Assembly: GCA_017448985.1 (NCBI GenBank)
Contig: JAFSKL010000028.1
Span: 16,336 to 80,335 of the forward strand
Direction of reading: 5' to 3'
Source of the DNA: Paludibacteraceae bacterium
GTDB taxonomy: Bacteria > Bacteroidota > Bacteroidia > Bacteroidales > Paludibacteraceae
DNA: 64,000 nt
Shown here: positions 1,604 through 62,910 of the stretch, piece by piece
Numbering within the stretch: the stretch's first letter is position 1
Layout of the letters: each line of letters begins with the position of its first letter
Made by a program: the position numbers and the translations under genes
Notes under the pieces: model-generated
The model's database searches: none
Seen by the model: the letters and a program-made list of their open reading frames with translations, nothing else
What the model was told of the DNA's origin: nothing

Positions 1604-1643
1604 ATTTTAGTCTACTAGTCTACTAGTTTTCTAGATGACTAGT
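1604..1643. repeat. 8-mer tandem array, unit CTACTAGT
   Basis: Five consecutive 8-nt units related to CTACTAGT lie upstream of dnaK. Two are identical, the others differ at one to four positions. The unit contains TAG, and the array lies outside coding sequence. Confidence 0.75.
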
Positions 1644-1675
1644 CATCCATAGAATGACAAAGACCGTGCCACACG

Positions 1676-1713
1676 AAAAAGTCTGCCAATTTGTCAGTTT
1701 TGGCAGACTTTTT
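1676..1713 (-). terminator. Intrinsic terminator after era
   Basis: The inverted repeat AAAAGTCTGCCAA / TTGGCAGACTTTT has an 11-nt loop and is flanked by A and T runs on both sides. It would end era transcription on the minus strand and could work both ways. Confidence 0.75.
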
Positions 1714-1715
1714 AG

Positions 1716-1743
1716 GGGTTACGGGTTACAGGTTACGGATTAC
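1716..1743. repeat. 4x7 tandem array, unit GGGTTAC
   Basis: Four heptamers (GGGTTAC twice, AGGTTAC, GGATTAC) make exactly 28 nt and abut the era stop codon. The same unit family recurs inside valS at 59004-59031 and, inverted, inside the genes at 18517 and 19874. Confidence 0.85.
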
Positions 1744-1746
1744 GGG

Positions 1747-2787
1747 TCATGACAAATCGTAGCCGTAGTGCTTGAGGCGGGAGGTGGAGGAACGCCAATC
1801 GCGGTCCACTTTGACATAGAGCTGGAGGAAGACCTGCTTCTGGAGGAAGTCCTCAATGTCCCGTCGGGCTTGTGTGCCGACACGCTTGAGGGCAGAGCCG
1901 CCTTTGCCGATAAGGATGCCTTTCTGGCTGTCGCGTTCGCAGTAAATGACTGCGTCAATGCGGATGAGTTTATCTTCTTCCTTGAAGGACTCCACTTCGA
2001 CTTCGACGGAGTACGGGATTTCTTTGTCGTAGTTCTGGAGTATCTTCTCGCGGATGATCTCGTTGACAAAGAAGCGCTCGGACTTGTCGGTCAGTTGGTC
2101 TTTTGGGAAGAAAGGCGGTCCGACGGGCAGTGCCTCTTTGATGGCGTCGAAGAGCTGGGAAACGCCGAAGCGCTCCTGTGCCGAGATAGGGAAGATTTCC
2201 GCCTCGGGCAATTGGCTGTGCCAGAAAGCAACGAGGTTCTCGAGTGTCTCTTGGGTCGTGAGGTCAATCTTATTTATTATAAGGAACACGCGCGTACCCT
2301 CGCGTTCGGCAACAGCCGCGGGCTGGGTGCCACTTTGCGGCACAGATACGCGCTGTGCCTCCGCTCTCCCCACCGAGTGCACTCCGTTAGCGCTCGTCGG
2401 GGACCCTGATTGATTACAAATCCTTTTGACCTTGGTCAGGAAATCGGCGTTGCGGTCGGGATTATCGTTGACATCGGTCACATAGAGCAGCACATCGGCA
2501 TCGACGAGGGCCGAACGCGAGAACTCGAGCATCTGACGCTGGAGCTGGTAGTTAGGCGAGAGGACTCCCGGAGTATCCGAATAGACCATCTGAAAGTCCT
2601 CGCCGTTAACAATGCCCATGATACGATGGCGGGTGGTCTGCGCCTTCGACGTGATAATCGAAAGGCGCTCCCCCACCAACGCATTCATCAGTGTCGATTT
2701 GCCCACATTGGGATTGCCCACAATGTTCACAAACCCACTACGGTGAGTCTGTGAACATTGTTTATTTACGATTTGGTCATTTACCAT
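1747..2787 (-). CDS. era: GTPase Era with an in-frame insertion
   Basis: Essential Ras-like GTPase that binds the 3' end of 16S rRNA during 30S maturation. G1 is GNPNVGKST (about residues 25-33), G3 is DTPG, G4 is NKID, and a C-terminal KH domain carries GKGGSALKRVG. At 346 residues it is about 50 longer than usual. Two additions explain this. A 17-residue N-terminal lead is encoded partly by a short repeat that supplies the ATG. About 42 residues without family similarity lie between G3 and G4 (DNA about 2288-2413). The start at 2787 is the only in-frame ATG before G1. Confidence 0.94.
   Translation of the reverse strand: MVNDQIVNKQCSQTHRSGFVNIVGNPNVGKSTLMNALVGERLSIITSKAQTTRHRIMGIVNGEDFQMVYSDTPGVLSPNYQLQRQMLEFSRSALVDADVLLYVTDVNDNPDRNADFLTKVKRICNQSGSPTSANGVHSVGRAEAQRVSVPQSGTQPAAVAEREGTRVFLIINKIDLTTQETLENLVAFWHSQLPEAEIFPISAQERFGVSQLFDAIKEALPVGPPFFPKDQLTDKSERFFVNEIIREKILQNYDKEIPYSVEVEVESFKEEDKLIRIDAVIYCERDSQKGILIGKGGSALKRVGTQARRDIEDFLQKQVFLQLYVKVDRDWRSSTSRLKHYGYDLS
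2288..2413 (-). other. Structured in-frame insertion inside era
   Basis: About 126 nt interrupt the stretch between FLTKVKRI and FLIINKIDL, which are nearly adjacent in ordinary Era. In gene direction the DNA holds nested inverted repeats: TCCCCGACGAG paired with CTCGGTGGGGA, then GGCACAG paired with CTGTGCC. It reads through with no stop. This resembles a palindromic element that inserts in frame, as Rickettsia RPEs do. The analogy is inferred; no second copy was found in the window. Confidence 0.6.
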
Positions 2788-2820
2788 TTACCAATTATTT
2801 GGTCATTTGACCATTTGATC
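2764..2820. repeat. Mixed 7/8-mer array, units ATTTACC and ATTTGATC
   Basis: Two ATTTACC heptamers are followed by three 8-mers (ATTTGGTC, ATTTGACC, ATTTGATC), with a further ATTTGGTC before them. The array fills the space between the M16 protease stop and era and provides the era start codon on the minus strand. Confidence 0.75.
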
Positions 2821-6829: not shown

Positions 6830-6834
6830 TTTTT

Positions 6835-6862
6835 AATGAATAATGATTAATGAATAATGAAT
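6835..6862. repeat. 4x7 tandem array, unit AATGAAT
   Basis: Four heptamers (AATGAAT, AATGATT, AATGAAT, AATGAAT) make exactly 28 nt between kbl and tdh. The unit contains stops (TGA, TAA) and is kept out of coding sequence. Confidence 0.85.
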
Positions 6863-6895
6863 ATTCTCATTTCTTATCTCACTTCGTTCGAACGA

Positions 6896-8160: not shown

Positions 8161-8204
8161 GCATTGACTGTCGGTTGACCGTCGGTTGACCGTCGGTGGT
8201 CATA
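8161..8204. repeat. 4x11 tandem array, unit CGGTTGACCGT
   Basis: Four 11-nt units lie upstream of kbl; the middle two are identical and the outer two degenerate. Sister 11-mer arrays are at 25586-25640 and 42350-42393. Confidence 0.75.
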
Positions 8205-15677: not shown

Positions 15678-16720
15678 TCAAGAAACGCTATATATTACGG
15701 ACTATTCTCATCGTCGTCGGCGTGCTGGCCGTGATGGCAGGTGTGTTTGTGGCGGAACAGTATTACCGCTTGCATATATGCAACTTCCGCGCCAAGGACG
15801 GCGAGCCGCACAGTTACAACATCTACCCGGGCGCATCAATCGATTCGGTGTTGGCCCTCATTCGTGAGGACTATGACATCAGTTCGGAGACGGACCTGAA
15901 ACTGCATATGCGTTCGCTGGTCTTCAATCATCCTGAACCCGGCCATTACCGTTTTCCCGAACTGACCGGTGACCAAGAGATCATCGAGCGCCTTAAGTTC
16001 GGCTACCAGACGCCCGTGCGCATCACATGGAATAATTTTGTTCGCACGCGCGAGGACTTGGCAGGCAGAGTGACGCGCAACCTGATGATGGATAGTGTGA
16101 CGCTGCTTAGGCTGTTGGAAGACGATGTTTTCCTGGAGCCGTATGGTTTCAACAAAGAGACGAGCCGTTGCCTCTTTATCCCCAACACCTACGAGGTGTA
16201 TTGGAATATCACGCCGGAGCAGCTATTCAACCGAATGCTGCGCGAATACAACCATTTCTGGAACGATGAACGCAGAGCGAAGGCCGATTCGATCGGTCTG
16301 ACGCCCGTGGAGGTGGCTATCATAGCGTCGATCGTGGAAGGCGAGAGTCATAACAAACGCGAGATGCCGCTGATTGCGAGTCTGTACCTGAACCGCGTAC
16401 ACAAAGGAATGCACTTGCAGGCGTGTCCGACCATCAAGTATGCCGTAGGTGACTTCAAGCTGAAGCGTATTCTCTACCGCCATCTGGCCGTTGATTCGCC
16501 GTATAACACCTACAAGAACCCGGGCCTGCCACCGGGACCGATCCGTTGTCCTGCGCCGACGACCATCGACATGGTACTCAATGCGCCCAAGACGGACTAT
16601 CTGTTCATGTGCGCGAGTCCCGAACTGAACAACACGCATATCTTCTCGTCCTCGTATCGTAATCACGCGAATGCCGCTGTGCAATATCGCCACACGATGG
16701 ATACCATTCACTGGGAGTGA
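15674..16720 (+). CDS. mltG: Endolytic murein transglycosylase MltG (YceG)
   Basis: Inner-membrane lytic transglycosylase that cuts nascent glycan strands and sets their length. One N-terminal transmembrane helix (about residues 9-27) is followed by a LysM-like region and the YceG catalytic domain. The catalytic glutamate is E222 in [26 protein letters not shown] is the conserved C-terminal signature. 348 residues is normal. The ATGA overlap with mutS indicates coupling. Confidence 0.95.
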
Positions 16721-16721
16721 A

Positions 16722-16756
16722 AATGGACAATGGAAAATTGACAATGGAAAATTGTG
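16722..16756. repeat. Heptamer array, units AATGGAC / AATGGAA / AATTGAC
   Basis: Four clean heptamers (28 nt) plus a fifth degenerate one start one base after the mltG stop. The fifth unit contains the GTG used as start of the next gene. Confidence 0.85.
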
Positions 16757-18483: not shown

Positions 18484-18511
18484 TTGGTAAATGGTAATTG
18501 GTAAATGGTAA
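18484..18511. repeat. 4x7 tandem array, units TTGGTAA / ATGGTAA
   Basis: Four heptamers alternate TTGGTAA and ATGGTAA, exactly 28 nt, one base after the kinase stop. The unit carries TAA. The last unit offers an ATG at 18505. Confidence 0.85.
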
Positions 18512-18516: not shown

Positions 18517-19863
18517 ATGATAGACACTTTTTTTCTTCCGGGCAGAGTATGCCCGACCAAGGCGATTCGTGAGATCGCAGACAAAGCCTCAGCAGCTTAT
18601 ACGATGATTTGTTTGAAACCGGAGATACAATGGGTATATCTCGGGCAGGAACGAATGGTACAGGTCATGGCAATGACCGGCGCCACGATGGTCTATGCGG
18701 ACCACTTCGCCAAGATGGACGAGAGTGTTTCCGAGGCGCCGGTAATTGATTACCAGATAGGGGCTTTGCGGGATGATTTTGACTTTGGGGCTGTGCAGCT
18801 ATGGGATACGAACAAACTCAAAGCGCTCGTCGCACAAATGGACACAGAGTACGAGTTCGCAGGGCTGTATGACTTGCGGTTGCGGGCAAGTCAAATGGAC
18901 AATGGAAAATGGAAAACGGGAAATGAATCCATTGTGCATATTCCGGAGTACCTATATTATGAGGTGGAAACGGACACGCGTAAGTCCGGAGAGAAACTGT
19001 TCGACTATGTCGATCCGCGCAATCGGGCGGTACAGATTGAGATGGAAGCGTGCGTGACGGCGCATCTCAAACGGATTGGAGCCTATCTCAAGCCCGGTGC
19101 GTATAAGGGACTCCCCGTAACCGATAACCCCTATCCCGTAACCGCCTCAGTGATCATCCCTTGCAAGAACCGCGCGAGGACGATTGCAGACGCGGTGCAT
19201 AGTGCGTTGAACCAGAAAGTGCGTGAGGGCTATTCGTTCAATGTGATCGTGGTCGATGACAACTCGACGGACGGAACGAAAGAGAAGATTCAGGCGATTC
19301 AGGATGATAAGCTAATCGTCATTCATCAGGACAAGTCCTGGCATGCCATAGGCGGGAACTGGAATGTGGCCATTCATGATCCGCGTTGCGGCAAATATGC
19401 CATTCAGTTGGATAGCGATGATACCTATTATGATGAAACGACCGTACAGAAGTTTATTGACTCATTTGAGGGCGGCAAGTACGGTATGGTGATTGGCACC
19501 TACCAGTTAACCAACATGGCCGGTGAGACCTTGCCTCCGGGTGTGATAGACCATCGGGAGTGGACGGACGACAACGGCCGGAACAATGCCTTGCGCATCA
19601 ACGGTCTCGGAGCTCCTCGCGGGTTCTATGTACCGCTGTTGCGGACCATCAATTATCCGACGACCAAGTACGGCGAGGACTATGCGGTAGGCCTGCGGAT
19701 CAGTCGTGACTACCCGATTGGCCGCATCTATGATGTGGTGTATAACTGCCGCCGTTGGGAGGATAACTCCGACGCCAACTGCGACATCGTGGCCATGAAC
19801 CGCAATAACTGGTACAAAGATCGACTGCGTACATGGGAGTTGCAAGCGAGAATGAACAATTGA
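18517..19863 (+). CDS. Family 2 glycosyltransferase with a long N-terminal domain
   Basis: 448 residues from ATG 18517; an in-frame ATG at 18505 falls in the repeat and I consider it less likely. Residues about 1-205 are not recognised. From about residue 208 a GT-A domain follows: [29 protein letters not shown], and the metal-binding [10 protein letters not shown]. It should transfer an activated sugar to an envelope acceptor, which is unknown. Two heptamer arrays are translated within it ([11 protein letters not shown] and TDNPYPVT). Confidence 0.85.
18894..18921. repeat. 4x7 array AATGGAC/AATGGAA, translated
   Basis: AATGGAC, AATGGAA, AATGGAA, AACGGGA: 28 nt inside the GT2 gene, read as [10 protein letters not shown]. 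It lies in the poorly conserved N-terminal half. Confidence 0.9.
19114..19141. repeat. 4x7 array CCCGTAA, translated, stop phase mutated
   Basis: CCCGTAA, CCGATAA, CCCCTAT, CCCGTAA lie just before the GT-A core. The reading frame meets the last three bases of unit three as one codon, and there TAA is replaced by TAT, so the gene stays open. Confidence 0.85.
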
Positions 19864-19885
19864 AAATTGAAAATTGAAAATTAAA
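19858..19885. repeat. 4x7 array AATTGAA at a gene junction
   Basis: Three AATTGAA units plus AATTAAA (28 nt) span the GT2 stop (TGA within unit one) and the TTG start of the next gene (19874). Confidence 0.9.
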
Positions 19886-20917
19886 GTCGGGATATTGACT
19901 GCGCCGAAGATTGAGTTTGAGCAGAAAGAGGACACATTCATTCTAAAGAATGTGCGAATCGGCATCAGCTTTCATTGGGACCGGAAAGAGGACCAGGAGT
20001 TTGCGGGAACCCTTGAAATACGCAATAATCCCGACGGAACTCAAACGGCGATTAATACCATCGATCTGGAGGACTATCTGTGTTCGGTCATTTCGTCAGA
20101 GATGAACGCCAATAGTCCTATGGAACTGCTCAAGGCTCATGCGGTGATCAGTAGGAGTTGGGCGATACGGGCCATGCAAAAAACCAATCACGAGGGCTAT
20201 GATGTCTGCGCGGACGACCATTGTCAGCGGTACGAGGGGCTCAGGCGAATGAACGAACGGGCTGTAGAAGCCGTCAGAGCGACCAAAGGGCAAGTGCTGA
20301 TGTATAACGACGAGATTTGCGACTGCCGGTACTATAAGTGTTGCGGCGGAAGGACGGAGATTTGGCGGACCTGTTGGGAAGATATCGATGTGCCGTATAT
20401 CCAGTCGGTGAAGTGCGACTGGTGTGACATGAGCCGTCAGCCGGCAGCTGTCAGCCGTCAGATTTTACGGCTAGTGCTTAATGACTATGACCAGGAGACG
20501 AAAGATTTCCGGGACTGGCAAGTGACTTACACCGCCGAAGAACTGAGCGAGATTGTTCGTACCAAATCGGGTATCGACTTCGGCGAAATCATTGACCTTA
20601 TACCGCTTCATCGCGGCGCCAGCGGGCGAATCGACCAACTCAAAATAGTAGGCTCCAAACGAACCGAAGTCATTGGCAAGGAGTTGAAGATCCGCTTGTG
20701 GCTCAGTCGGAGTTGTCTCTATAGTTCGTGGTTCGAAGTTGCCCATAACCCGTCACCAGTAACCGGTAACCCCTCATGGACGCTGATTGGACACGGCTGG
20801 GGTCACGGCGCAGGACTGTGTCAGATAGGTGCGGCGGTGATGGCAAGCGAAGGAAAGCCATACGAAGAAATACTTTCGTATTATTATCATAATACTCAAT
20901 TGAAGATTGCAGATTGA
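19874..20917 (+). CDS. SpoIID/LytB-domain protein
   Basis: 347 residues with the SpoIID fold: INTIDLEDYLCSVISSEM (about 57-74), AHAVISRSWAI, and near the C-terminus GWGHGAGLCQIGA. SpoIID proteins are lytic transglycosylases acting on denuded peptidoglycan; Bacteroidales homologues in non-sporulating cells are little studied. There is no clear signal peptide, so localisation is uncertain. The start is a TTG inside an AATTGAA array; MKIKVGIL directly precedes the conserved beta strand and no better start exists. Two arrays are translated inside it. Confidence 0.85.
   Translation: MKIKVGILTAPKIEFEQKEDTFILKNVRIGISFHWDRKEDQEFAGTLEIRNNPDGTQTAINTIDLEDYLCSVISSEMNANSPMELLKAHAVISRSWAIRAMQKTNHEGYDVCADDHCQRYEGLRRMNERAVEAVRATKGQVLMYNDEICDCRYYKCCGGRTEIWRTCWEDIDVPYIQSVKCDWCDMSRQPAAVSRQILRLVLNDYDQETKDFRDWQVTYTAEELSEIVRTKSGIDFGEIIDLIPLHRGASGRIDQLKIVGSKRTEVIGKELKIRLWLSRSCLYSSWFEVAHNPSPVTGNPSWTLIGHGWGHGAGLCQIGAAVMASEGKPYEEILSYYYHNTQLKIAD
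20432..20459. repeat. 4x7 array AGCCGTC, translated
   Basis: AGCCGTC, AGCCGGC, AGCTGTC, AGCCGTC: exactly 28 nt within the SpoIID gene, read SRQPAAVSRQ. Confidence 0.85.
20722..20771. repeat. Two abutting arrays, TAGTTCG (x3) and AGTAACC (x4), translated
   Basis: TAGTTCG, TGGTTCG, AAGTTGC are followed by CATAACC, CGTCACC, AGTAACC, GGTAACC. In the second array the unit whose TAA would be read as a stop instead has TCA. Confidence 0.75.
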
Positions 20918-20926
20918 AGATTGAAG
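20899..20926. repeat. 4x7 array ATTGAAG at a gene junction
   Basis: ATTGAAG, ATTGCAG, ATTGAAG, ATTGAAG: 28 nt encoding the last residues and TGA stop of the SpoIID gene and the TTG start of the next. Confidence 0.9.
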
Positions 20927-22059
20927 ATTTAGCGTTACAACGCTCGAAATACAAGCACCTGACGGACGATGAATGGCGGTGGTTCTTGCAGCAGGTCGAG
21001 GGTCGCGAACGGACAGCGGACAAGCTGCCCGCTTTTGCGGCGATAGAAGACTGGTGGTATCCGGTAAGGCTGAGTTGTGAGCAGTGTTCGTCCGAACTCG
21101 CGGCCAAGTACAAAGCAAGCCTTGTCAGCGGCGAAAAGATGGCCGATTTGACAGGAGGCTACGGAGTAGATTCTTATTTTTTCAGCGATTCTTTTTCTTC
21201 GATAGACTATGTGGAGCAGAATGAAGAACTATGCCGGATTGCCGCACATAACTTCGCCAACAAACTTATTACTATTCATAATACTTCTGCCGAAGAGTTT
21301 CTGCAAACGGCAGGGCAGTACGATTTGATTTTTCTTGATCCGGCTCGTCGGGACAGTCACGGCGGCAAGGTGTTTCGGTTGGAGGACTGTACGCCGAATG
21401 TGGTCGAGTTGCTCCCTACTATGCTCGTTCATGGCAAACGGCTGATGCTCAAACTCTCGCCGATGTTAGACCTGACACAAGCGTTAAAGAGTCTTTCAAC
21501 TTTAAATTGGGACATCTATGTAGTGGCGATAAAGAATGAGGTCAAGGAGCTTCTATTGCTAAGCGGCGGTTCAGGACAAATAACATCGATAGATTTAGAC
21601 AAAATGGACCAAGCATTTGTCTTCACGCGGGAAGAGGAATCCAACAGCAGGACCCTCGTCTGGGTCTTACAGCAGAGCGGTCTCACTTCTAACAGCGCAA
21701 GCGGTCTTTTCCTATACGAGCCCAACGCAGCCATTCTCAAGGCCGGGGCATATAAACTGGTGTCAGAGCGATTCGGGCTCGCCAAACTGGATGTAAACAC
21801 GCATTTGTATGTTTCGGAGGACTTGGTAGCGGACTTCCCGGGACGAGTGTGGAAAATAGAATCTGAAATCAAAAATCAAAAATTTGCACGGCTCAGCCGA
21901 TCGACAGAAATCACAAATGCCAATATCCTTTGCCGCAACTATCCCTTGACGCCGGAGCAGCTCAAGAAAAAACTGCGCCTTCGTGACGGAGGTACCGATT
22001 TCGTTATCGGCTGTCGCGTGAACGGCAAGCCTACTCTCTTCTTAGCCGAGCGTGTATAA
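20914..22059 (+). CDS. Class I SAM-dependent methyltransferase, PG_1098/THUMP-like type
   Basis: 381 residues. The SAM-binding motif I is MADLTGGYGVDSYFF (about 79-93), motif II is DYVEQNEELCRIAAHN, and motif IV is FLDPARRDSHGG. This matches the Bacteroidota family with an N-terminal helical region and a C-terminal THUMP-like/ferredoxin-like fold (PG_1098), which suggests RNA binding; the exact target is unknown. It starts at TTG 20914, overlapping the previous stop, with the start supplied by the array. Confidence 0.8.
   Translation: MKIEDLALQRSKYKHLTDDEWRWFLQQVEGRERTADKLPAFAAIEDWWYPVRLSCEQCSSELAAKYKASLVSGEKMADLTGGYGVDSYFFSDSFSSIDYVEQNEELCRIAAHNFANKLITIHNTSAEEFLQTAGQYDLIFLDPARRDSHGGKVFRLEDCTPNVVELLPTMLVHGKRLMLKLSPMLDLTQALKSLSTLNWDIYVVAIKNEVKELLLLSGGSGQITSIDLDKMDQAFVFTREEESNSRTLVWVLQQSGLTSNSASGLFLYEPNAAILKAGAYKLVSERFGLAKLDVNTHLYVSEDLVADFPGRVWKIESEIKNQKFARLSRSTEITNANILCRNYPLTPEQLKKKLRLRDGGTDFVIGCRVNGKPTLFLAERV
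21860..21880. repeat. Heptamer array AATCAAA, translated
   Basis: AATCTGA, AATCAAA, AATCAAA plus a degenerate AATTTGC, read SEIKNQKF in the methyltransferase. The unit is stop-free in this orientation. Confidence 0.75.
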
Positions 22060-24151: not shown

Positions 24152-24896
24152 GCTGACGATCGGCTACCGAGTACAGAATACAGAGTACAGAGTACAGACC
24201 GATTTAGACTTTGCGTTACAGCAAGGCGAATTGGTGTGTATGTTGGGTCCTAACGGCTGTGGCAAATCGACCCTGTTACGGACCTTAGCCGGTCTCCAAC
24301 CGCCGCTTTCCGGAGAATACAGAATACAGAGTACAGAGTACAGACCGGAAAAGGCAGTAGCACTGGTGTTAACGGAGCGGCTGTCGCTGGAGAACACGAC
24401 GGTGCATGATGTGGTGGCGATGGGGCGGTATCCGTACACCTCGTTCTTAGGCGGCCTCACGCCGGAAGACGAAGCCATCATCTCCGAATCATTGGAGCAA
24501 GTCGGTTTTACCGGAATACCGGAATCACGGGATACCGGTATATCGAAAAGCTTTTTCAACAATCACTCAGACGGCGAGAAGCAGCGCATCCTGATCGCCA
24601 AGGCGTTGGCGCAACAGACGCCGATCATCCTGTTGGATGAGCCGACGGCGCATCTGGACTTGCCACACCGGATATTGATCCTGCGCTTGCTACGGACGCT
24701 GGCTCACGAGCAGGGCAAGACGGTGTTGATCTCGACCCACGAACTCGATCTGGCGCTGGCGCTCAGTGACCGCATCCTGCTGATGACACCCAGACGCGGC
24801 ATCCGACTCGACACCGCCGAACACTTGAAGAAAGCCGACGCTTTCACCGATGCCTTCGGCATGGACATCTTTAAACCCGGAGCGTCCTTCCGTTGA
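24123..24896 (+). CDS. ABC transporter ATP-binding protein (iron/cobalamin-uptake type)
   Basis: 257 residues. Walker A GPNGCGKST (about 51-59), Q-loop region VLTERLSLENTTV, signature HSDGEKQR, Walker B IILLDEPTAHLD, and the switch histidine in LISTHELD. Family features (AMGRYPYTSFLG) match FecE/BtuD ATPases of siderophore or B12 importers. No permease or binding protein is next to it. The GTG start overlaps the alr end by 29 nt. Three arrays are translated within it, two of them around the nucleotide-binding core. Confidence 0.88.
   Translation: MSNESISTNKLTIGYRVQNTEYRVQTDLDFALQQGELVCMLGPNGCGKSTLLRTLAGLQPPLSGEYRIQSTEYRPEKAVALVLTERLSLENTTVHDVVAMGRYPYTSFLGGLTPEDEAIISESLEQVGFTGIPESRDTGISKSFFNNHSDGEKQRILIAKALAQQTPIILLDEPTAHLDLPHRILILRLLRTLAHEQGKTVLISTHELDLALALSDRILLMTPRRGIRLDTAEHLKKADAFTDAFGMDIFKPGASFR
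24171..24198. repeat. 4x7 array GTACAGA, translated
   Basis: GTACAGA, ATACAGA, GTACAGA, GTACAGA: 28 nt read RVQNTEYRVQT at the ABC ATPase N-terminus. Confidence 0.9.
24317..24344. repeat. 4x7 array ATACAGA/GTACAGA, translated
   Basis: ATACAGA twice then GTACAGA twice, read YRIQSTEYR after SGE, where related ATPases carry a variable strand before the Q-loop. Second copy of this family in one gene. Confidence 0.9.
24510..24541. repeat. 4x8 array ACCGGAAT, translated
   Basis: ACCGGAAT, ACCGGAAT, CACGGGAT, ACCGGTAT: 32 nt read TGIPESRDTGI in the helical subdomain just before the ABC signature. Confidence 0.85.
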
Positions 24897-31858: not shown

Positions 31859-33765
<1,907 letters not shown>

Positions 33766-39391: not shown

Positions 39392-39435
39392 CATCTCCTA
39401 CCGAGGCTTCGGCTTTTGGTGGGAGATTATTTTTT
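39392..39435 (+). terminator. Terminator of rplU-rpmA
   Basis: ATCTCCTACCGA / TTGGTGGGAGAT stem followed by a T run (39430-39435). Confidence 0.85.
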
Positions 39436-39454
39436 AATGATTAATGATTAATGA
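39434..39454. repeat. Heptamer array TTAATGA
   Basis: Three perfect TTAATGA units and a degenerate fourth (TTATTCC) directly after the terminator. Stop-bearing, non-coding. Confidence 0.85.
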
Positions 39455-39487
39455 TTATTCCGCAGGACTACATCCGCCTTACGAGAT

Positions 39488-39515
39488 ATTCATTATTCAT
39501 TATTAATTATTCATT
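39488..39515. repeat. 4x7 array ATTCATT before serS
   Basis: ATTCATT, ATTCATT, ATTAATT, ATTCATT: 28 nt immediately upstream of the serS start. It is the reverse-complement family of AATGAAT (6835-6862). Arrays at 39434 and 39488 form an inverted pair. Confidence 0.88.
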
Positions 39516-39521
39516 AAATTT

Positions 39522-40951: not shown

Positions 40952-40972
40952 AACTTTCAACTTTAAACTTTA
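40952..40972. repeat. Heptamer array AACTTTA
   Basis: AACTTTC, AACTTTA, AACTTTA with a degenerate fourth, between the serS terminator and the next promoter. Confidence 0.75.
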
Positions 40973-40996
40973 AACAGAAAAAGTTCCACTTTTTCT

Positions 40997-41582: not shown

Positions 41583-42333
41583 CATAGTACTCTTGCTGTG
41601 GCTGATGGCCAACGCCCTGCCGCTGATGGCGCACAACGACTCGACGGCTCTGGCCAAAGCGCCCCTCTACGGCGGGACGCAAGTCAAACTGGACATCGCA
41701 TCGCCGATCATCATTGCTGCCTCCAACAAATGGCAGATGCAACATTACGAAATGGCGGTCAATGTGCGGCTCAAGGATCGCTTTTACCCCACTTTTGAAC
41801 TGGGTTACGCAGGCGGCACGACCACACAAGGCGACACCATTGCCTATGCCGGACAAGGCGGATTCTTCAGGGCCGGAGTGGACCTCCATCCGCTCAAGAA
41901 ACATCCCGAGAGTCCTCACGCCATGCTCATCGGCGTTCGGCTCGGAGCTGCGGTACAGGACTTTAATCAGGACCTCACCCGCGAGCCCAAAAGCACCGCC
42001 ACGGACGCCTTGGTAACAACAGATGTCTATGCCGTCAACACCAAGGGCATCTACGGCGATTGCTGGGGAGAGATAGTGGCAGGATGCCAAGTCGAGATAG
42101 CCAAAGTCGAACGACCAACGACCAACGACAAACGACCAATGGCTTTTTACATGGGATGGATGGGACGGCTCAAATGTCTGTTCACGCGCTCGCTCGTTCC
42201 CACAGCCAAAAAGCAACTGACGGACGAACAACTGATGGCCGGAAGCGTGCTCACGCCCATTTACATTCCGGGCTACGGCAAACGGGATAACATAGCGTGG
42301 GGATTCGACTACTACATCGGATGGCGATTTTAA
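41560..42333 (+). CDS. DUF6048-like exported protein
   Basis: 257 residues with a signal peptide (IVLLLWLMANALPLMA), beta-rich body with YPTFELGYAGG, GFFRAGVDLHPLKK and a C-terminal PIYIPGYGKRDNIAWGFDYYIGWRF region, consistent with a small outer-membrane or periplasmic barrel-like protein. The DUF6048 match is from memory of the C-terminal pattern. A heptamer array is translated (ERPTTNDKRPM). Confidence 0.72.
   Translation: MRRKSLCNIVLLLWLMANALPLMAHNDSTALAKAPLYGGTQVKLDIASPIIIAASNKWQMQHYEMAVNVRLKDRFYPTFELGYAGGTTTQGDTIAYAGQGGFFRAGVDLHPLKKHPESPHAMLIGVRLGAAVQDFNQDLTREPKSTATDALVTTDVYAVNTKGIYGDCWGEIVAGCQVEIAKVERPTTNDKRPMAFYMGWMGRLKCLFTRSLVPTAKKQLTDEQLMAGSVLTPIYIPGYGKRDNIAWGFDYYIGWRF
42111..42138. 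repeat. 4x7 array ACGACCA, translated
   Basis: ACGACCA, ACGACCA, ACGACAA, ACGACCA: exactly 28 nt read RPTTNDKRP. Confidence 0.92.
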
Positions 42334-42349: not shown

Positions 42350-42393
42350 GGAACGACAGTCGAACGACGGTCGAACGACGGTCGAACGACAGT
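42350..42393. repeat. 4x11 array CGAACGACGGT
   Basis: GGAACGACAGT, CGAACGACGGT twice, CGAACGACAGT: 44 nt in the gap before tkt. Confidence 0.88.
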
Positions 42394-42455
42394 CAAAGCC
42401 AATGTAAGTACACTAACACACCAAGAAAAGAACAAAAATTAATATAAAAATTACT

Positions 42456-47606: not shown

Positions 47607-49097
47607 TTACTCTGCCAAATTGACAGCGTAATAACGGACGCGGCCTTGGGGTGTGCAGCCGGTAATGAAGAGAACGCGGTCATGCTCGGAGGCGGAATTG
47701 GCGCGACGGACGATGTCGTCAAGGTCTTCTTCTGTGCGCACGGAGCGGTTGTTTACTTTCAGGATGATGAAGTCCGCCGGCACGCCGGCACTCTTCAGTT
47801 TGCCTGCCTTGAGCGACTTGATTTGCAGGCCGTAATTGATACCTAAGCGTTCTTTTTGTGCATCCGTCAGTTCTGAGAAAGTGGCACCCAAGACAGACGC
47901 TTTGTCCTCGGCGGAGATGACACCTGTGCCACCGTCGCGGTTGGTGAGTGTCGCTTGGACGGTGAGCGTCTTGCCGTCGCGCAGGAGAGTGACGGAAATT
48001 ACGTCTCCAGGACGATGACGACCGATATGTTCCTGCAAGTCGGTGCCTGTCTTAACCGCAACATCGTCAATGCGTGTGATCACATCGCCGCTCTTAATGC
48101 CGGCTTTCTCCGCTGCGCCGTCCGGCACTACACGCTCCACGTACGCACCTTGTAACGTGCTGAGTTTCTTTTCTTTCTGCAGTTCGGACGTGATCTCACG
48201 CATCTGCACGCCGAGGATAGCGCGCTGTACGACACCGTATTGGCGGATGTCGCTCACCACTTTCTGCACAATGCTCGTCGGGACAGCAAAACTATAGCCC
48301 GAATACGAACCGGTCTGCGAGGCGATGGCGGTGTTGATACCCACCAGTTCGCCGCGCGTGTTAACCAGCGCACCGCCGGAGTTGCCGGGGTTGACGGCGG
48401 CGTCAGTCTGAATAAACGACTCGATCTTCATCTCCGCATTGAGGATATTGATGTTACGTGCTTTCGCAGAAACGATACCTGCCGTGACGGTCGAAGTGAG
48501 GTTAAACGGATTGCCGACAGCAAGCACCCATTCGCCGACACGCAGGTCGTCGGAGTTGCCCATGAGGATCACCGGCAGGTTTGTCTCTTCAATCTTCAGA
48601 AGCGCGATGTCCGTGTTCGGATCGGTGCCCACCAGCGTCGCCGTGTATTCGCGCTTGTCGTTGAGCACAACTTGAATCTGGTCCGCGCGGTCAATGACAT
48701 GATTGTTGGTAACGATGTAACCGTCCTCGGAGATGATCACACCCGAACCGGAAGCCTGTTGATCAGGCATTTCGCGTTGCTGCCCCGGACGGCCGAAGAA
48801 GAATTCAAATAGATCCATCTGCTGCGACGATACCTGATTGCGGTAAGTCGTCTTGACGTGTACCACGGCATTAACGGATAATTCGGCGGCTTGGGTAAAG
48901 TCCGTCTCGCCGGCCTGCGGCAAAGAAGCGAAGCGGCTGTAAGCGGTCGAGATTCCGGAGGAATCGGAAACTAATTGGGATTTGAGATTTGAAATTTGAG
49001 AATTGGTTATGCCGTATTTCAGCACGGCGAACGTTGTTCCGGCACTGACGGCTGCAATGAGCAGCACGACGCCTAAAAATCTAAATAACTTTTTCAT
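47607..49097 (-). CDS. HtrA/DegQ-family periplasmic serine protease
   Basis: 496 residues. N-terminal membrane anchor or signal (FLGVVLLIAAVSAGTTFAVL), trypsin-like domain with catalytic His in VTNNHVID, Asp in TDIALLKI and Ser in NPGNSGGALVN, then two PDZ domains (GVQMREITSEL..., and a second C-terminal). It degrades or refolds misfolded envelope proteins. A short heptamer array gives residues NSQISNLKSQ just after the anchor. Confidence 0.95.
   Translation of the reverse strand: MKKLFRFLGVVLLIAAVSAGTTFAVLKYGITNSQISNLKSQLVSDSSGISTAYSRFASLPQAGETDFTQAAELSVNAVVHVKTTYRNQVSSQQMDLFEFFFGRPGQQREMPDQQASGSGVIISEDGYIVTNNHVIDRADQIQVVLNDKREYTATLVGTDPNTDIALLKIEETNLPVILMGNSDDLRVGEWVLAVGNPFNLTSTVTAGIVSAKARNINILNAEMKIESFIQTDAAVNPGNSGGALVNTRGELVGINTAIASQTGSYSGYSFAVPTSIVQKVVSDIRQYGVVQRAILGVQMREITSELQKEKKLSTLQGAYVERVVPDGAAEKAGIKSGDVITRIDDVAVKTGTDLQEHIGRHRPGDVISVTLLRDGKTLTVQATLTNRDGGTGVISAEDKASVLGATFSELTDAQKERLGINYGLQIKSLKAGKLKSAGVPADFIILKVNNRSVRTEEDLDDIVRRANSASEHDRVLFITGCTPQGRVRYYAVNLAE
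48972..49006. repeat. Heptamer array GATTTGA, translated in htrA (antisense)
   Basis: TAATTGG, GATTTGA, GATTTGA, AATTTGA, GAATTGG. On the gene strand (TCAAATC) it is stop-free; on the plus strand it would contain TGA. Confidence 0.78.
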
Positions 49098-49532: not shown

Positions 49533-50903
49533 ATGCAAATAAAATTAGAAAATAAGCGCAGAAAGACCATAAATATCCAGGTTGGGAACATTTTTATAGG
49601 TTCCGACTACCCTATTCGCATCCAAACGATGGCCAACACCTCGACCAATGACATCGACGCATCGGTGGATCAAGCCCGCCGTTGTATTGAAGCCGGCGCC
49701 GAACTGTTGCGTTTCACCACACAGGGTCTGCGCGAAGTGGAATCGCTCCGCGAGATACACGCGCAAGTGCTGACTGCCGTACCGCTGGTAGCCGATGTAC
49801 ATTTCCAAGCCGATGTGGCTGATGCCGCCGCACAAGTGGTGGAAGCCGTTCGTATCAACCCGGGCAACTACTGCAAGGATCCGGCCAAACTGGAAGAACG
49901 CTTTGTGCATCTCTTGGAGATCTGCCGCGAGCACAAGACGGCCATCCGCATTGGTGTTAATCACGGTTCGCTCTCCGAACGGATGATGGATCAATTCGGC
50001 GACACGCCGCAAGGAATGGTCGAATCGGTCATGGAGTTCCTCCGCATCGCCGAACGGGAGAAGTTCGACAACATCGTCATCTCCATCAAAGCCTCCAACA
50101 CGCGCGTCATGGTCGAAACCGTTCGCCTGCTCGTCAAAACGATGAAACACGAACACATGGCTTACCCGCTCCATTTGGGCGTGACCGAAGCCGGTGAAGG
50201 TGAGGACGGACGCATCAAATCGGCGGTAGGCATAGGAGCCTTGTTGGCCGACGGAATAGGCGATACCATTCGTGTCAGCCTCAGCGAAGAGCCCGAGAAC
50301 GAGATTCCTGTCGCACAGGACCTCGTGGACTATTTCGCGAACGAGGACTCGCCCCGTTATGACGGTTCGGTGGTAGCCGAAGTGCTGGATAACATAGGCG
50401 GTGACGCTGAGATCCGCTACACCAGTTACGAAGACGATTGGGAGCTCTTCTGCCTCCAGGCGGCTGCAGAGACGGGACGCTTGCTATGGGAATTCAAGGC
50501 GCGCGAACTGACGCTCGTTAATCCCAATTTCTCGGAGACCAAGCTCAATTTCCTGAGCAAAGATATCCTTCAGGCTGCGCGCGTTCGCATCTACAAAACG
50601 GAGTATATCTCCTGTCCTGGCTGCGGACGGACACTGTTCGACCTGCAAAAAACGGTAGCGGAAGTGAAAGCGGCTTGCAGCCAAAAGCTAAAAGCCAACG
50701 GCCAAAGTTATAAAATAGCCGTCATGGGTTGCATCGTCAACGGTCCCGGCGAGATGGCAGACGCCGACTATGGCTACGTCGGAGCCGGACGCGACCGCAT
50801 CAGCCTCTATCGCGGCAAAGAGTGTGTGCTCAAGAATATCCCGCAAGAAGAGGCCGTGGAACAGCTCCTCGCACTCATCGAAGCAGACAACAACAACCAC
50901 TAA
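49533..50903 (+). CDS. ispG: 4-hydroxy-3-methylbut-2-enyl diphosphate synthase, short A* domain
   Basis: [4Fe-4S] enzyme of the MEP pathway that reduces MEcPP to HMBPP. N-terminal TIM barrel (RRKTINIQVG to SLSEEPENEIPVAQDL) and C-terminal cluster domain with cysteines in ISCPGCGRTLFDL and MGCIVNGPGEMADADYGYVG. Bacteroidota enzymes normally carry a large inserted A* domain and reach about 600 residues; this one has 456, with only about 85 residues between the barrel and the cluster domain. A heptamer array is translated as SQKLKANGQ. Confidence 0.93.
   Translation: MQIKLENKRRKTINIQVGNIFIGSDYPIRIQTMANTSTNDIDASVDQARRCIEAGAELLRFTTQGLREVESLREIHAQVLTAVPLVADVHFQADVADAAAQVVEAVRINPGNYCKDPAKLEERFVHLLEICREHKTAIRIGVNHGSLSERMMDQFGDTPQGMVESVMEFLRIAEREKFDNIVISIKASNTRVMVETVRLLVKTMKHEHMAYPLHLGVTEAGEGEDGRIKSAVGIGALLADGIGDTIRVSLSEEPENEIPVAQDLVDYFANEDSPRYDGSVVAEVLDNIGGDAEIRYTSYEDDWELFCLQAAAETGRLLWEFKARELTLVNPNFSETKLNFLSKDILQAARVRIYKTEYISCPGCGRTLFDLQKTVAEVKAACSQKLKANGQSYKIAVMGCIVNGPGEMADADYGYVGAGRDRISLYRGKECVLKNIPQEEAVEQLLALIEADNNNH
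50679..50706. repeat. 4x7 array AGCCAAA, translated in ispG
   Basis: AGCCAAA, AGCTAAA, AGCCAAC, GGCCAAA: 28 nt between two cluster-domain segments. Same family as 32126-32153. Confidence 0.88.
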
Positions 50904-56583: not shown

Positions 56584-56611
56584 AATTTTTAATTCGTAAT
56601 TTTTAATTTTT
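56584..56611. repeat. 4x7 array AATTTTT before valS
   Basis: AATTTTT, AATTCGT, AATTTTT, AATTTTT: 28 nt in the valS leader. Confidence 0.8.
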
Positions 56612-56622
56612 AATTCTATCAT

Positions 56623-59298
56623 ATGGATAGCAAATATAATCCCAAAGACATCGAAGCCCACTGGTATCAGTATTGGCTGGACAACAAACTCTTTCACAGC
56701 GAGCCGGACTGCCGCGAACCTTTCACCATCGTTATCCCGCCGCCCAACGTAACGGGCGTGCTCCACATGGGTCACGTGCTGAATGAGACCATTCAGGACA
56801 TCCTCGTTCGTCGTGCCCGTCTCGAAGGCAAGAACGCCTGCTGGGTTCCGGGCACCGACCACGCGTCGATAGCCACCGAAGCCAAGGTCATCAAGCGCCT
56901 CAAAGAGCAAGGCATCAACAAATCCGACCTCACACGCGAGCAGTTCCTCAAACACGCGTGGGACTGGACCGACGAACACGGCGGCATCATCCTCAAGCAG
57001 CTCCGCAAGCTCGGCTGCTCCTGCGACTGGGACCGCACCGCCTTCACCATGGACGAGACCCGCTCCAAAGCCGTCATCAAAGTGTTCTGCGACCTGTACC
57101 GCAAAGGCCTCATCTACCGCGGACTCCGCATGGTCAATTGGGATCCGGAGCGCCAAACGGCTCTCTCCGACGAGGAAGTGATCTACCACGACGAGCATAA
57201 CAAGTTCTACTACCTCCGTTACCGCGTGGCCGAAGACCCGACCAAATATGCCGTCGTCGCCACCACGCGTCCGGAGACCATTTTCGGCGATATAGCCGTC
57301 TGCATCAACCCTAAAGAGGAGAAGAACCAATGGCTCAAGGGCAAGCATGTGATCGTACCGGGTGTAGGCCGCGTGATACCGATCATCGAGGACCGCTACG
57401 TGGAGATAGGCTTCGGTACCGGCTGCCTCAAAGTGACGCCGGCCCACGATGTGAACGACTATATGCTCGGGCAGAAATACAAGCTCAAGACCATCGATAT
57501 CTTCACGCCGGACGCGCATCTGAACATGGATACCATCGAGCCGGAACTGCAGCCGAATGTGCGCAAGTACCACGGAATGGACCGTTTCGACTGCCGCAAG
57601 GCCATCGTCGAGGACCTCAAAGCGCTCGACCTCGTGGAGAAAATAGAGGACTACGACAACAAAGTGGGTTACTCCGAGCGCACCAATGTGCCTATCGAAC
57701 CGCGGTTGAGTCTCCAGTGGTTCGTCAAGATGCAGCATTTTGCCGACATCGCGCTGCCGCCGGTGATGAACGACGACATCGTCTTCTATCCCGCCAAATA
57801 CAAGAACACCTACCGCAACTGGCTGGAGAACATCAAAGACTGGTGCATCAGCCGCCAGCTCTGGTGGGGACACCGTATTCCCGCATGGTACGATGCAGAA
57901 CTTCTGGCACAGACAGGTCTCGAGAACTATCCTGATGACAAGATCCTTGTATGCGAAGGAGATCCAAACACCCAAATGGTAAATGGTAAATGTCAAAATG
58001 GTAAATGGATTCAGGACGAAGGCGCTCTCGACACCTGGTTCTCGTCATGGCTCTGGCCTATCTCGCTGTTCAACGGCATCGACGATCCCGGCAACAAAGA
58101 GATCAACTATTACTACCCCACTTCCGACCTCGTAACGGGTCCGGATATCATCTTCTTCTGGGTAGCACGAATGATCATGGCGGGCTATGAGTACGTCGGC
58201 AAGATGCCGTTCAAACATGTCTATTTCACGGGTATCGTCCGCGATAAACTGGGCCGCAAGATGTCCAAATCGCTGGGCAACAGTCCCGACCCGCTGGACC
58301 TCATCGAGCGTTACGGCGCCGACGGTGTCCGTATGGGTATCCTGCTCTCCGCACCTGCCGGCAACGACATCCTCTATGACGATGCCCTCTGCGAGCAAGG
58401 ACGCAACTTCTGCAACAAGATCTGGAACTGCTTCCGTCTGATTAAGAGTTGGGAAGTAGCGGATAATGCTCCCTCTCTTGAGGAGAGGGCAGGGGAGAGG
58501 TTTGCGATCAAATGGTTCGAAGCCAAACTGGCGCAGAGCGAAGCGGAGATAGCCGACCTGTTCAGCAAATACCGTCTGTCCGAGGCCTTGATGGAGATCT
58601 ACAAGCTGTACTGCGACGAGTTCAGCGGCTGGTACTTAGAGATGATCAAACCGGCTTATCAGCAGCCTATCGACCGCGGCACCTACGAAGCCACGCTCGC
58701 GTTCTTCGACCGTCTGCTGCGACTGCTCCATCCGTTCATGCCGTTCATCACCGAAGAGCTCTGGCACGGCTTAGAGCCGAGCAAGCAAGGCTGCGCGGTG
58801 AGGTCTATCATGAACGCCACCTTAGCGCCTATCGGCAACGTTGATACCGCTATCCTCGCAGAGGTCGAAGACCTCAAAGCCATCATCGCCGGTGTGCGTA
58901 ACGCGCGCGCAGCGAAGAATATCCCGCCGAAAGAGCGTCTCACGCTCATCTCGCCGGTAGCCCTGAATCCGCTCGTGGAGAAACTGGCCAATGTAGAAAT
59001 AAAGGTTACGGGTGACGGGTTACAGGTTACGGGCAACTGTTCCAAGTTCATCGTTGGCACCACCGAGTTCGCCATCCCGATGGACGCATTTATCAATGTG
59101 GAAGAGGAGCTCAAGAAACTGGAGGCAGACCTGCAGCATCAGCAAGGCTTCTTGCGGGGTGTGATGGCCAAACTGAGCAACGAGCGCTTCGTCCAGAACG
59201 CCAAGCCGGAGATCGTGGCCCTCGAGCAGAAGAAACGCTCCGATGCCGAAGCCCGTATCGCTGCCCTCGAAGAGGCCATCCGTGCACTCAAAGGATAA
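56623..59298 (+). CDS. valS: Valyl-tRNA synthetase
   Basis: Class I synthetase, 891 residues. HIGH motif as [11 protein letters not shown]1 editing domain with [19 protein letters not shown] as [14 protein letters not shown], and a C-terminal coiled coil ([19 protein letters not shown]). Three short repeats are translated in frame: NGKCQNGKW in the catalytic-domain loop before [24 protein letters not shown] before the anticodon domain, and [10 protein letters not shown] before the coiled coil. Confidence 0.97.
57974..58002. repeat. Array AAATGGT with one extra base, translated in valS
   Basis: AAATGGT, AAATGGT, AAATGTC, then AAAATGGT (8 nt). The third unit replaces the in-phase TAA by CAA and the extra A shifts the next unit, giving 29 nt rather than 28. 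Confidence 0.85.
58469..58500. repeat. C/G-rich palindrome in valS, translated
   Basis: CTCCCTCTCTTGAGGAGAGGG arms in part (CCCTCTC / GAGAGGG), read SLEERAGER. Confidence 0.88.
59004..59031. repeat. 4x7 array GGTTACG, translated in valS
   Basis: GGTTACG, GGTGACG, GGTTACA, GGTTACG: 28 nt read [10 protein letters not shown]. Stop-free in this orientation. Confidence 0.92.
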
Positions 59299-61578: not shown

Positions 61579-61585
61579 TTTTCTT

Positions 61586-62173
61586 ATGAGCAAAATCGAC
61601 ACATCGAATTGGATAGAGTTCTCGATGAAAGAGTTAGGTTTTGATAACTTTCACGGGAAACGTCTTACTAAGAAAGACAGAATAGTTGGTACTATTCCTT
61701 TCATTACGGCTGGTAAAGAAAATCAAGGTGTTGTAGGATATATTGGTAATAATTGGCCAACTTATCATAATCCAATAACGGTTGATATGTTCGGTAATGT
61801 ATTTTATCATAAAGGGGATTTTGCGGGTGATGATAACATCTATTTCTTTGTAAATAATCAAATAAACGAGTATAGTAAATTGTTCATTGTGTCTTCTATA
61901 CAATGTTCTCTAAAGGCAGTCTTTGCTTATGTTGATCAGTTTCGTCAAGATAATGCCGATGAATTAAAAATCCTTCTCCCTGCGAAAGGTAATGAGCCCG
62001 ACTGGCACTATATGGAGATGTATATGCGAGGAGTGGAAGCCATCGTCAAAAACAAACTCTCTTTGCTCGTACCGCACAAAACGGAGGTAGCCATTAAGGA
62101 CGCTGCAAATGTCACTTTTAACAACGCAAATGTGACATATATCGACCAAAGTAAGACCTTTAATGTAAAATAA
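61586..62173 (+). CDS. Specificity subunit with a single target-recognition domain
   Basis: 195 residues. GTIPFITAGKENQGVVGYIG is the classic start of an HsdS target-recognition domain, with DNIYFFVNNQ, a Q-C-S-L-KAVFAYVDQFRQ segment and ILLPAKGNEPDWHYMEMYM before the helical arm. Type I S subunits have two such domains; one suggests a half-subunit that dimerises and reads a palindromic or bipartite site with the protein upstream. The C-terminal tail (NVTFNNANVTYIDQSKTFN) is of unknown role. AT-rich. Confidence 0.85.
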   Translation: MSKIDTSNWIEFSMKELGFDNFHGKRLTKKDRIVGTIPFITAGKENQGVVGYIGNNWPTYHNPITVDMFGNVFYHKGDFAGDDNIYFFVNNQINEYSKLFIVSSIQCSLKAVFAYVDQFRQDNADELKILLPAKGNEPDWHYMEMYMRGVEAIVKNKLSLLVPHKTEVAIKDAANVTFNNANVTYIDQSKTFNVK

Positions 62174-62184
62174 TATCGATTTTT

Positions 62185-62216
62185 CTTGCATATATCGGGA
62201 AAAAGTTGTACCTTTG
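62185..62216 (+). promoter_or_regulatory. Promoter for the gene at 62426
   Basis: TTGC (62185-62189 region) and TACCTTTG (62209-62216), 20 nt apart; it leaves a leader of about 200 nt. Confidence 0.7.
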
Positions 62217-62425
62217 CACCCGATTTCGCTGGTATCGACAGCGTAAAAAAGCGATAACATAGTATTTTTCAAGGCATATTCCTTTGTAAACGAATTCGGC
62301 AAATTTCAGTAAAGAAAAGAAATATGTCCCAATTATCCGTGACTTGCATGGGTAGGTGGGGCATCTTTACGCTTTGCCGAAAGCCGTTTACTGTTCCATC
62401 TATCTGTGCTTTTTTATGAAGCAAT
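62217..62425 (+). promoter_or_regulatory. Long leader with a possible 31-codon upstream ORF
   Basis: About 205 nt between promoter and ATG 62426. It contains GGTATCGACAGCG, a possible pairing of GAATTCGGCAAA with TTTGCCGAAAG, and an ORF 62324-62419 (MSQLSVTCMGRWGIFTLC...). The ORF ends 7 nt before the next start, so it could be a leader peptide; equally the region may be a structured RNA. I do not recognise a catalogued riboswitch. Confidence 0.4.
62324..62419 (+). CDS. Possible 31-residue leader peptide
   Basis: ATG to TGA, cysteine- and hydrophobic-rich (TCMGRWGIFTLCRKPF). No ribosome-binding site stands out. Reported because it fills the leader and abuts the next gene; it may not be translated. 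Confidence 0.3.
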   Translation: MSQLSVTCMGRWGIFTLCRKPFTVPSICAFL

Positions 62426-62833
62426 ATGAGTAAACCTGTTTTCTTTAATTCCAAAGTCGTCTATCACGACAACAGCCGTGAGTACAACATTGATGCGCGC
62501 GGACGGGACCTCTCCGAGGTAATTCGTACTATTGACACCCAAGATGTCGTGCCCGTTCAGGAAGAAAAGCCGGAGTCGAAATCCGAGCATTTCCCGTATC
62601 TTACCCAAAAGTGTTTTGACGAGAAAAGAGTTTCGACCATAGAAGCCGAGATACAGGCAGCGCGCAAAGGTACTGCCGAAGATATGTGGCGCACACTTTG
62701 GAATAACGAGAACTTGGGATATGTGGCGGTTCAGTATATCAATGCTACTACCCTCTACCGCGAAATCGAAAAATGGTACGGAGAACTCCCCTATAAAGAG
62801 CGGAATTTTAGAGAAGCACGGAATAAAAGGTGA
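62426..62833 (+). CDS. Accessory Bacteroidales protein of unknown function
   Basis: 135 residues, no signal peptide. N-terminal beta-like segment (VVYHDNSREYNIDARGRDLSE), acidic linker, then a helical domain FPYLTQKCFDEKRVSTIEAEI ... WRTLWNNENLGYV ... YGELPYKERNFREARNKR. I have an impression that this C-terminal domain recurs in short Bacteroidales genes of unknown role near mobile regions; I assign no function. Confidence 0.6.
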   Translation: MSKPVFFNSKVVYHDNSREYNIDARGRDLSEVIRTIDTQDVVPVQEEKPESKSEHFPYLTQKCFDEKRVSTIEAEIQAARKGTAEDMWRTLWNNENLGYVAVQYINATTLYREIEKWYGELPYKERNFREARNKR

Positions 62834-62910
62834 CTGCCGTCCATTGCCGTTCACTGCCGCGTGATACTGCCGTCTATTGCCGTTTGACTGCCGTCTACTG
62901 CCGTTGAGTG
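62831..62910. repeat. About 8 units of a 10-11-mer, core ACTGCCGT
   Basis: TGACTGCCGT, CCATTGCCGT, TCACTGCCGC and further degenerate units, starting over the stop of the preceding gene. The longest array in the window. Confidence 0.8.

Follow-up and report, generated by a model that had tools for sequence, protein, structure and literature searches.

Short tandem arrays of 7-nt units, mostly about 32 nt long and variable in sequence, are dispersed through a 64,000-nt stretch of DNA from a Paludibacteraceae bacterium of the Bacteroidales (GenBank assembly GCA_017448985.1, contig JAFSKL010000028.1; the whole stretch is here called the window, G000:C8:16336-80335). We propose tentatively, with a little less than even confidence, that new arrays arise at full size, copied from arrays which the lineage already has, and that selection keeps the tolerable ones. 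Copying fits best because the pieces are full-size, their repeat words come mostly from the genome's own stock, and there is usually no seed for them. The abundance of heptamers is already known; what is new is the dynamic of fixed size and of words particular to a lineage, which we call house words. The G000 assembly comprises 2.36 Mb in 45 contigs and is 97% complete, and 464 kb of it, about one fifth, was sampled. The close genomes were assembled from metagenomes; each species is represented by one, and they stand at species distance.

Arrays were detected with a tandem repeat finder (TRF) and with a scan for matches at a fixed lag. In the window 20 segments score at least 14 at lag 7, against a mean of 0 in 10 order-3 Markov simulations of the window, and the other lags from 2 to 40 give 0-3 segments each, except lag 14 (2 x 7) with 10. 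The 464 kb of G000 hold 82 segments at lag 7, which lags 14 and 21 echo, and none at lags 3-6. Lags 8, 11 and 16 are enriched too (11-12 segments each in the 464 kb). Two 50-kb stretches of E. coli MG1655 (100 kb), scanned as a control, contain no array of period 3-16. The 7-nt tandem unit is therefore above chance, as is expected of heptanucleotide simple sequence repeats. The original prediction, a reading of the sequence alone, counted at least 17 loci and in fact listed 21. Twenty of these starts are heptameric (at least 16 of 21 lag-7 comparisons match within 28 nt), and the one at 19114 fails (14/21, no scored segment). TRF recovers the same arrays plus unlisted ones, for example a perfect array at 33342-33374. 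Four units, said to be the exact number at each locus, are indeed the core, but the typical form adds about 4 nt (mode 31-33 nt), and arrays both shorter and longer than this occur. The unit was said to differ between loci; the words are many, but nine window arrays belong to one AATKGAM family (16719, 18894, 19858, 23156, 26193, 26750, 31817 and 33342, with 27275 added by eye).

The size of the arrays is nearly constant across unrelated units, as had been claimed. In the 464 kb, 64 lag-7 arrays have 4.3-4.9 copies, against 1, 0, 0 and 0 at the control lags 10, 13, 17 and 19, and the two-copy class (2.1-2.6 copies) shows no excess, with 10 arrays at lag 7 against 7-10 at the control lags. Neither the even spread from two copies upward that would have spoken against the claim, nor the falling series from two upward that plain slippage would give, is seen at lag 7 in this sample. 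A size census was made on 129 loci totalling 2.47 Mb, from which duplicates, L150-L170 and the first 30 short loci had been removed in advance. It gives medians of 4.57 copies and 32 nt for period 7 (n=279), 4.5 copies and 36 nt for period 8 (n=48), and 3.9 copies and 43 nt for period 11 (n=65). The median is 32 nt alike in coding (n=88), intergenic (n=67) and gene-boundary arrays (n=66), sister genomes both being counted. A reading-frame filter was considered as the cause of four copies, since going from 1 to 4 copies adds 21 nt, or seven codons. It was rejected because intergenic arrays are equally sized and have 4.x copies no less frequently (25/36) than coding ones do (36/66).

House arrays mostly have the form W(XW)4, in which a 4-nt word W (AATG or AATT here) occurs five times with four 3-nt spacers between. 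The AATKGAM arrays listed for the G000 sample number 19, and four units plus AATN make up 14 of them (near-units counted by eye); of the remaining five, one has 3.6 units, two have 5 or more, one has 6, and one has 4 or 5. Start and end phases are non-random in four families, a result that is partly biased, as variable positions trim the ends and the copies of a family are related. Under the same bias, AATT or AATG/CATT stands at the start of 52 of 233 arrays, with about 16 expected; we use these phases as anatomy, not as proof. When eight window arrays were folded as single-stranded DNA, four had a minimum free energy of 0 and four of -0.7 to -1.7 kcal/mol (lowest z -1.81), and no hairpin was found. 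In 329 kb from other Bacteroidales there are 16 arrays; ten measure 27-34 nt, so that this class is represented there too. In L150-L170, from other Bacteroidales, arrays are concentrated in few genomes (six each in L152 and L166, the latter from the cultured relative Bacteroides caecigallinarum, and none in most), which suggests that array-rich lineages arose repeatedly or were often lost.

The arrays are mostly not independent inventions; lineages amplify one or a few house words, AATKGAM here and MATTGTR in the sisters G021 and G041. A near copy (at most 3 mismatches in 28) exists elsewhere in the 464 kb for 66 of 93 arrays, compared with 19/93 for reversed and 0/93 for random 28-mers. In the genus, 61 genomes were compared for three copies of AATGGAC (at most 2 mismatches): 14 have them and the other 47 have none, with 73 matches in G000, 44 in G004, 35 in G002, 32 in G051, 20 in G045 and few in nine others. 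MATTGTR 28-mers, with overlapping registers counted, match 50 times in G021, 200 in G041, 11 in G018 and 0-2 in nine others. When seven genomes are sampled equally, arrays are on average closest to those of their own genome in 7/7, narrowly so in G042 (3.51 vs 3.57 for G015). Exact 30-nt duplicates that include internal variants lie on different contigs in two cases, and a common word is found in 12 of 34 neighbour pairs less than 1 kb apart, compared with 433 of 3233 pairs between contigs. The original view that the arrays are generated "rather than one spreading element" is not supported, in that genomes carry spreading house families and own-genome arrays are on average the nearest.

Three pairs of close genomes were aligned: G021/G041 (61 kb, 94.6% identical), G042/G043 (79 kb, 89.1%) and L099/L100 (about 86%). 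Sisters have 10 of 19 arrays in common in G021/G041 and 5 of 16 in G042 vs G043, the rest being changed or missing. Copy-number variability is thus seen only between species (one genome each), with some arrays shared and some changed. This comparison of orthologous loci, which the original prediction had proposed, indicates that most arrays are not fixed, though some are common to sisters; the uniform presence at orthologous loci that would also have spoken against the prediction did not appear. At eleven presence/absence sites only one genome of the pair has an array, of 20-40 nt. The other allele has a lag-7 segment at 0/11 of these sites, and at 9/11 its similarity to the array does not exceed that of windows drawn at random from its genome. 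The local seed sought for slippage, which had been put forward as a generator of arrays, is accordingly not seen at nine of them. Eight of the 11 sites can be aligned in further species, and at 8/8 at least four further species have no lag-7 segment, which, judged from these alignments, speaks for gain of the array rather than loss. One array may also stand in place of another between sisters (CAACTTT vs TAATTTT, TTTTTAA vs CTTTCAC, AATTTTT vs AATTTAC). In two cases an array lies opposite non-scoring sister sequence with the length unchanged, and either state may be the earlier. From species to species, unrelated words are found in the same protein loops and at the same gene junctions.

Arrays are found within genes as well as between them. 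Stretches of eleven close-clade genomes contain 221 arrays, of which 88 are coding, 66 fall on a gene boundary and 67 are intergenic; sister genomes are both counted, and the genes come from a home-made caller with approximate boundaries, which in the window missed the open reading frame (ORF) 19874-20917 and shortened 20914-22059. Array densities rest on stretches of 20-464 kb. The in-gene arrays keep the reading frame and tend to carry their purines on the coding strand (67 arrays against 21); 70/88 are stop-free in sense and 45/88 in antisense. Such biases are what a filter acting on the protein would be expected to leave.

The dxs gene has four such sites, A to D, and was compared in 17 distinct genes of the close clade. 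At a score of at least 10, arrays occupy 30 of the 68 site-states, and none of the 17 genes has an array outside the four sites. Insertion in a conserved gene without loss of frame, as with Rickettsia palindromic elements, is thus found at the dxs sites of these genes. At one site the word is CAATGGA, GGAATCA, GGTTACG, GGCTAAC, ACAAATT or AGTTGAG, depending on the species; at site A the insert adds 9 or 10 residues. In an alignment to 2o1s, an enzyme of known structure, the sequence of 2o1s has gaps where the first three sites lie. An AlphaFold model of Dxs, of low confidence (mean predicted local distance difference test, pLDDT, 63), places the arrays in coil except for the helix-end residues 131-134 of site A. 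The sites are probably surface loops or linkers, as far as this model can be relied upon. Identical blocks may occur at two sites of one gene, namely 34 nt at A and B in L094, and 27 nt at C and D in L097, where the array is degenerate and below the scoring threshold.

Some side observations concern these sites. The fourth dxs loop of the window (site D, 27402-27478) holds an in-frame repeat of another kind, which contains GTCCGAAGGAC palindromes; L008 has related sequence, as do L002 and L109 in shorter form. Inside heptamer arrays there are hairpin-like elements, several of which have an AATAATC-like linker, in the dxs loops of L096 and L008 and at G021:C48 ~38915, and another is present in the G041 counterpart of G021:C48 8778. 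The stop/start junction before coaE (window 33777-33798) is bare in 8 of the 14 genomes aligned besides L099; the remaining 6 have other sequence, in several cases another short array.

In the process we propose, a short patch of an existing array would be copied into a new site of the same genome during replication or repair, arriving by insertion or by in-place replacement. Purifying selection would then spare arrays in loops, linkers and junctions. Period 7 would be inherited from founding arrays, perhaps via polymerase geometry, as proposed by Mrazek and colleagues according to extracts of later papers. Slippage acts additionally on existing arrays, in 14-nt steps, and perhaps at dxs site B. 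Template switching in repair would permit insertion and replacement alike; its usual mark is microhomology. Several results weigh against copying. No near copy is found for 27 of the 93 arrays in the sampled fifth of the genome, and the array at G042 40960, taken as gained, has no exact donor in the assembly, its relatives being at 2-3 mismatches. Three of the 11 presence/absence sites have no further species for polarity, and at three others (G043 36434, L099 17753 and L100 740) arrays with a different word are present in 3, 1 and 4 further species, respectively. Target-site duplication is not constant (0, 0, 1, 1, 4 and 5 nt at six clean insertions), although a TAAA duplication had been suggested by eye at L099 17753. 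A shared word at the entry point is not above random at 9/11 sites. Since the duplication is inconstant and word sharing at these nine sites is at the random level, a classical integrase and microhomology-primed template switching are both unsupported. All the close genomes, moreover, are metagenome assemblies at species distance. A more specific form of copying, in which an activity uses existing arrays as the source of patches of fixed length (~32 nt) and writes these elsewhere by insertion or overwriting, is unlikely. If true, it would work without terminal repeats, target-site duplication or the usual transposase, and the self-propagating sequence would be constant only in its architecture.

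Slippage in place is a rival reading, and some of its support (dxs site B, the 14-nt steps and the excess at 2.7-3.9 copies) also counts against copying. In this rival model a chance W-X-W near-repeat grows locally during replication, 7 nt is favoured by the contact length of the polymerase, and point mutation freezes the array at 4-5 copies. House arrays start and end on the same tetramer, as slipping between two W words would give. The site B array of dxs (GCGAACG/GGCTAAC) overlaps the V-A-N-G-E-R codons, as local growth would give, and 14-nt copy-number steps are seen between close genomes. There is also an excess at 2.7-3.9 copies (48 arrays vs 15, 4, 6 and 5 at lags 10, 13, 17 and 19 in the 464 kb), which may represent trimmed four-copy arrays or true intermediates, and two of the 11 other alleles have 7-8 nt in common with the array (P 0.028 and 0.004). 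Two-copy arrays are, however, not in excess, the other alleles lack a periodic seed, and internal variants common to distant places, together with lineage-specific house words, are at odds with local growth. We regard slippage as the origin of the arrays as possible though rather doubtful.

Mobilization by a transposase, such as the RAYT-like Y1 proteins of these genomes, appears improbable. A divergent Y1/RAYT-like family is present in 12 of 17 genomes including G000, with seven loci in G041, and it is found in 10 of 11 close-clade genomes (the exception, G021, is 63% complete) vs 2 of 6 others; the array size is like that of repetitive extragenic palindromic (REP) sequences, and some arrays contain hairpins. 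The window arrays are nevertheless not palindromic in the folding described above, target-site duplication is not constant, and the association of the family with arrays is confounded by clade. Heptamer arrays lie within 2 of 8 RAYT-like loci, CGTCC-tagged hairpins being directly downstream in 3 of 8, and G005 (84% complete) has 5 arrays in 46 kb with no RAYT-like match. G000 does encode a RAYT-like protein, as a REP/REPIN system would require, a matter of presence alone. For a reverse transcriptase as the writer (diversity-generating retroelement or retron), RVT_1 is matched in 5 of 17 genomes, but neither in G000, which is 97% complete, nor in G041. Very improbable, finally, is the reading of arrays as functional sites (for regulator binding, or for ribosome or RNA contacts) under selection at gene junctions. 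Several arrays do lie on stop/start junctions, and a translational role has been proposed for TAACTGA repeats in extracts of PMC4679880, but words and occupancy vary between species at the same junction, and arrays have the same size inside genes, where 88/221 are located.

The RAYT/Y1-like proteins are ~350 residues long and have an MPDHVHI-type motif, with a Pfam Y1_Tnp score of only 21.6 bits (L205:2047-3121, that is G000:C12:8053-9120, and L206, L207 and L208). Directly downstream of the copies in G041, G042 and G043 there are tandem CGTCC-tagged hairpins (L207: GCTTCGTCCATTTTGCCGGATAATATCCGGC) or CGTCC repeats. In PMC3733652, by contrast, no RAYT with flanking CGTC repeats is reported.

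Dispersed tandem heptamers are known from filamentous cyanobacteria as STRR, and the likeness to the present arrays is by description, not by size or sequence. Rickettsia palindromic elements are short repeats inserted in frame in conserved genes; this insertion is common to both, although those elements are palindromic and the arrays here are tandem heptamers. Among long simple sequence repeats, period 7 is dominant within the range of 5-11 nt (Mrazek et al. 2007, as excerpted in PMC4679880 and PMC4692102), and it is dominant here as well. In comparison with those repeats, as far as the excerpts go, the present arrays have ~4.6 copies without a two-copy class, many are in frame in conserved genes, most presence/absence sites are seedless, and words fall in lineage families; the two are set apart by description only. 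Direct repeats of TAACTGA are found in Beggiatoaceae, cyanobacteria and five Bacteroidetes (extracts of PMC4679880). These have one word, mostly upstream of start codons (MacGregor 2015, in the same extracts), in contrast to the many words, coding and intergenic, seen here. The statement that heptamer repeats had no description in Bacteroidales is therefore nearly right for the present pattern, with the TAACTGA heptamer of the five Bacteroidetes as a reservation. REP/REPIN sequences with RAYT, as described in PMC3116915 and PMC3733652, likewise comprise many 20-40-nt pieces per genome, some in genes; they are palindromes able to form a hairpin, unlike the non-palindromic tandem heptamers here. 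Among the matches listed from the open-licence literature there is no account of fixed-size, in-frame, lineage-specific heptamer arrays. The arrays point to a process of mutation by which core enzymes gain about nine or ten codons in one event (in the window Dxs, MurG, CoaE and ValRS), the same loops being filled with different peptides in each species. For protein annotation, array-encoded peptides are to be taken as a reading of the DNA array and not as conserved motifs. Counts of heptamer repeats go back at least to 2007, and with close strains of Bacteroidales the origin of such repeats could be tested directly.

The arrays of the window are the following, with the strand given for those in genes.

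1712..1745, TTACGGG, 4.9 copies, intergenic, beside the 3' end of the Era-like GTPase gene 1747-2787 (minus strand)
6834..6863, TAATGAA, 4.3 copies, intergenic
16719..16754, AATKGAM family (4 units + AATT), junction of a YceG-like gene and the next ORF
18485..18511, TGGTAAW, stop/start junction 18482/18505
18894..18923, plus strand, AATGGAM, in frame in glycosyltransferase ORF 18505-19863
19858..19882, AATTGAA, spanning stop/start junction 19863/19874
20432..20461, plus strand, AGCCGTC, in SpoIID-like ORF 19874-20917
20899..20929, ATTGAAG, spanning the 20917/20914 gene junction
23156..23187, plus strand, perfect AATGGAC x4 + AATG, in MurF/alanine racemase ORF 22250-24151
24165..24198, plus strand, TACAGAG, in ABC-ATPase ORF 24123-24896
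24314..24344, plus strand, second TACAGAG array in the same ABC-ATPase ORF, with 26 nt including an internal variant in common with the array at 24165
26193..26225, plus strand, dxs site A, (AATKGAM)4-AATG, residues 131-142
26750..26781, plus strand, dxs site B, (AATGGAM)4-AAT, residues 317-327
27275..27307, plus strand, dxs site C, (AATGGRA)4-AATG, residues 492-503
31817..31858, AATKGAM, 6 units, junction 31850/31854
32124..32153, plus strand, AGCCAAM, in MBOAT-family ORF 31854-33773 (weaker)
33342..33374, plus strand, perfect AATGGAA x4 + AATGG, in MBOAT-family ORF 31854-33773
34305..34343, plus strand, AGAGGCA, in coaE ORF 33799-34422
34927..34956, plus strand, AAGGACA, in MurG-like ORF 34419-35504
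39434..39457, TTAATGA, intergenic, upstream of the seryl-tRNA synthetase gene
39487..39516, TATTCAT, intergenic, with an exact 30-nt copy at G000:C2:109284
40952..40975, AACTTTA, intergenic
42110..42136, plus strand, AACGACC, in DUF6048 ORF 41560-42333
48975..48999, minus strand, TTGAGAT, in HtrA/DegP-like ORF 47607-49097 (weaker)
50679..50706, plus strand, AGCCAAA, in ispG (GcpE) ORF 49533-50903 (weaker)
56584..56617, AATTTTT, just upstream of the valyl-tRNA synthetase gene at 56623
59004..59033, plus strand, GGTTACG, in valyl-tRNA synthetase ORF 56623-59298
8164..8197, period-11 array TTGACCGTCGG, same class with another period
25596..25632, period-11 array CGTGGTCAAAC, intergenic
42351..42394, period-11 array GAACGACAGTC x4, intergenic

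Two further features of the window are of other kinds. A 44-nt unit is repeated 2.6 times with 100% match at 8239-8351, between two minus-strand genes, and positions 17478-17550 match the Rfam family RF04319 (BTncRNA_FopS) with 76.1 bits.

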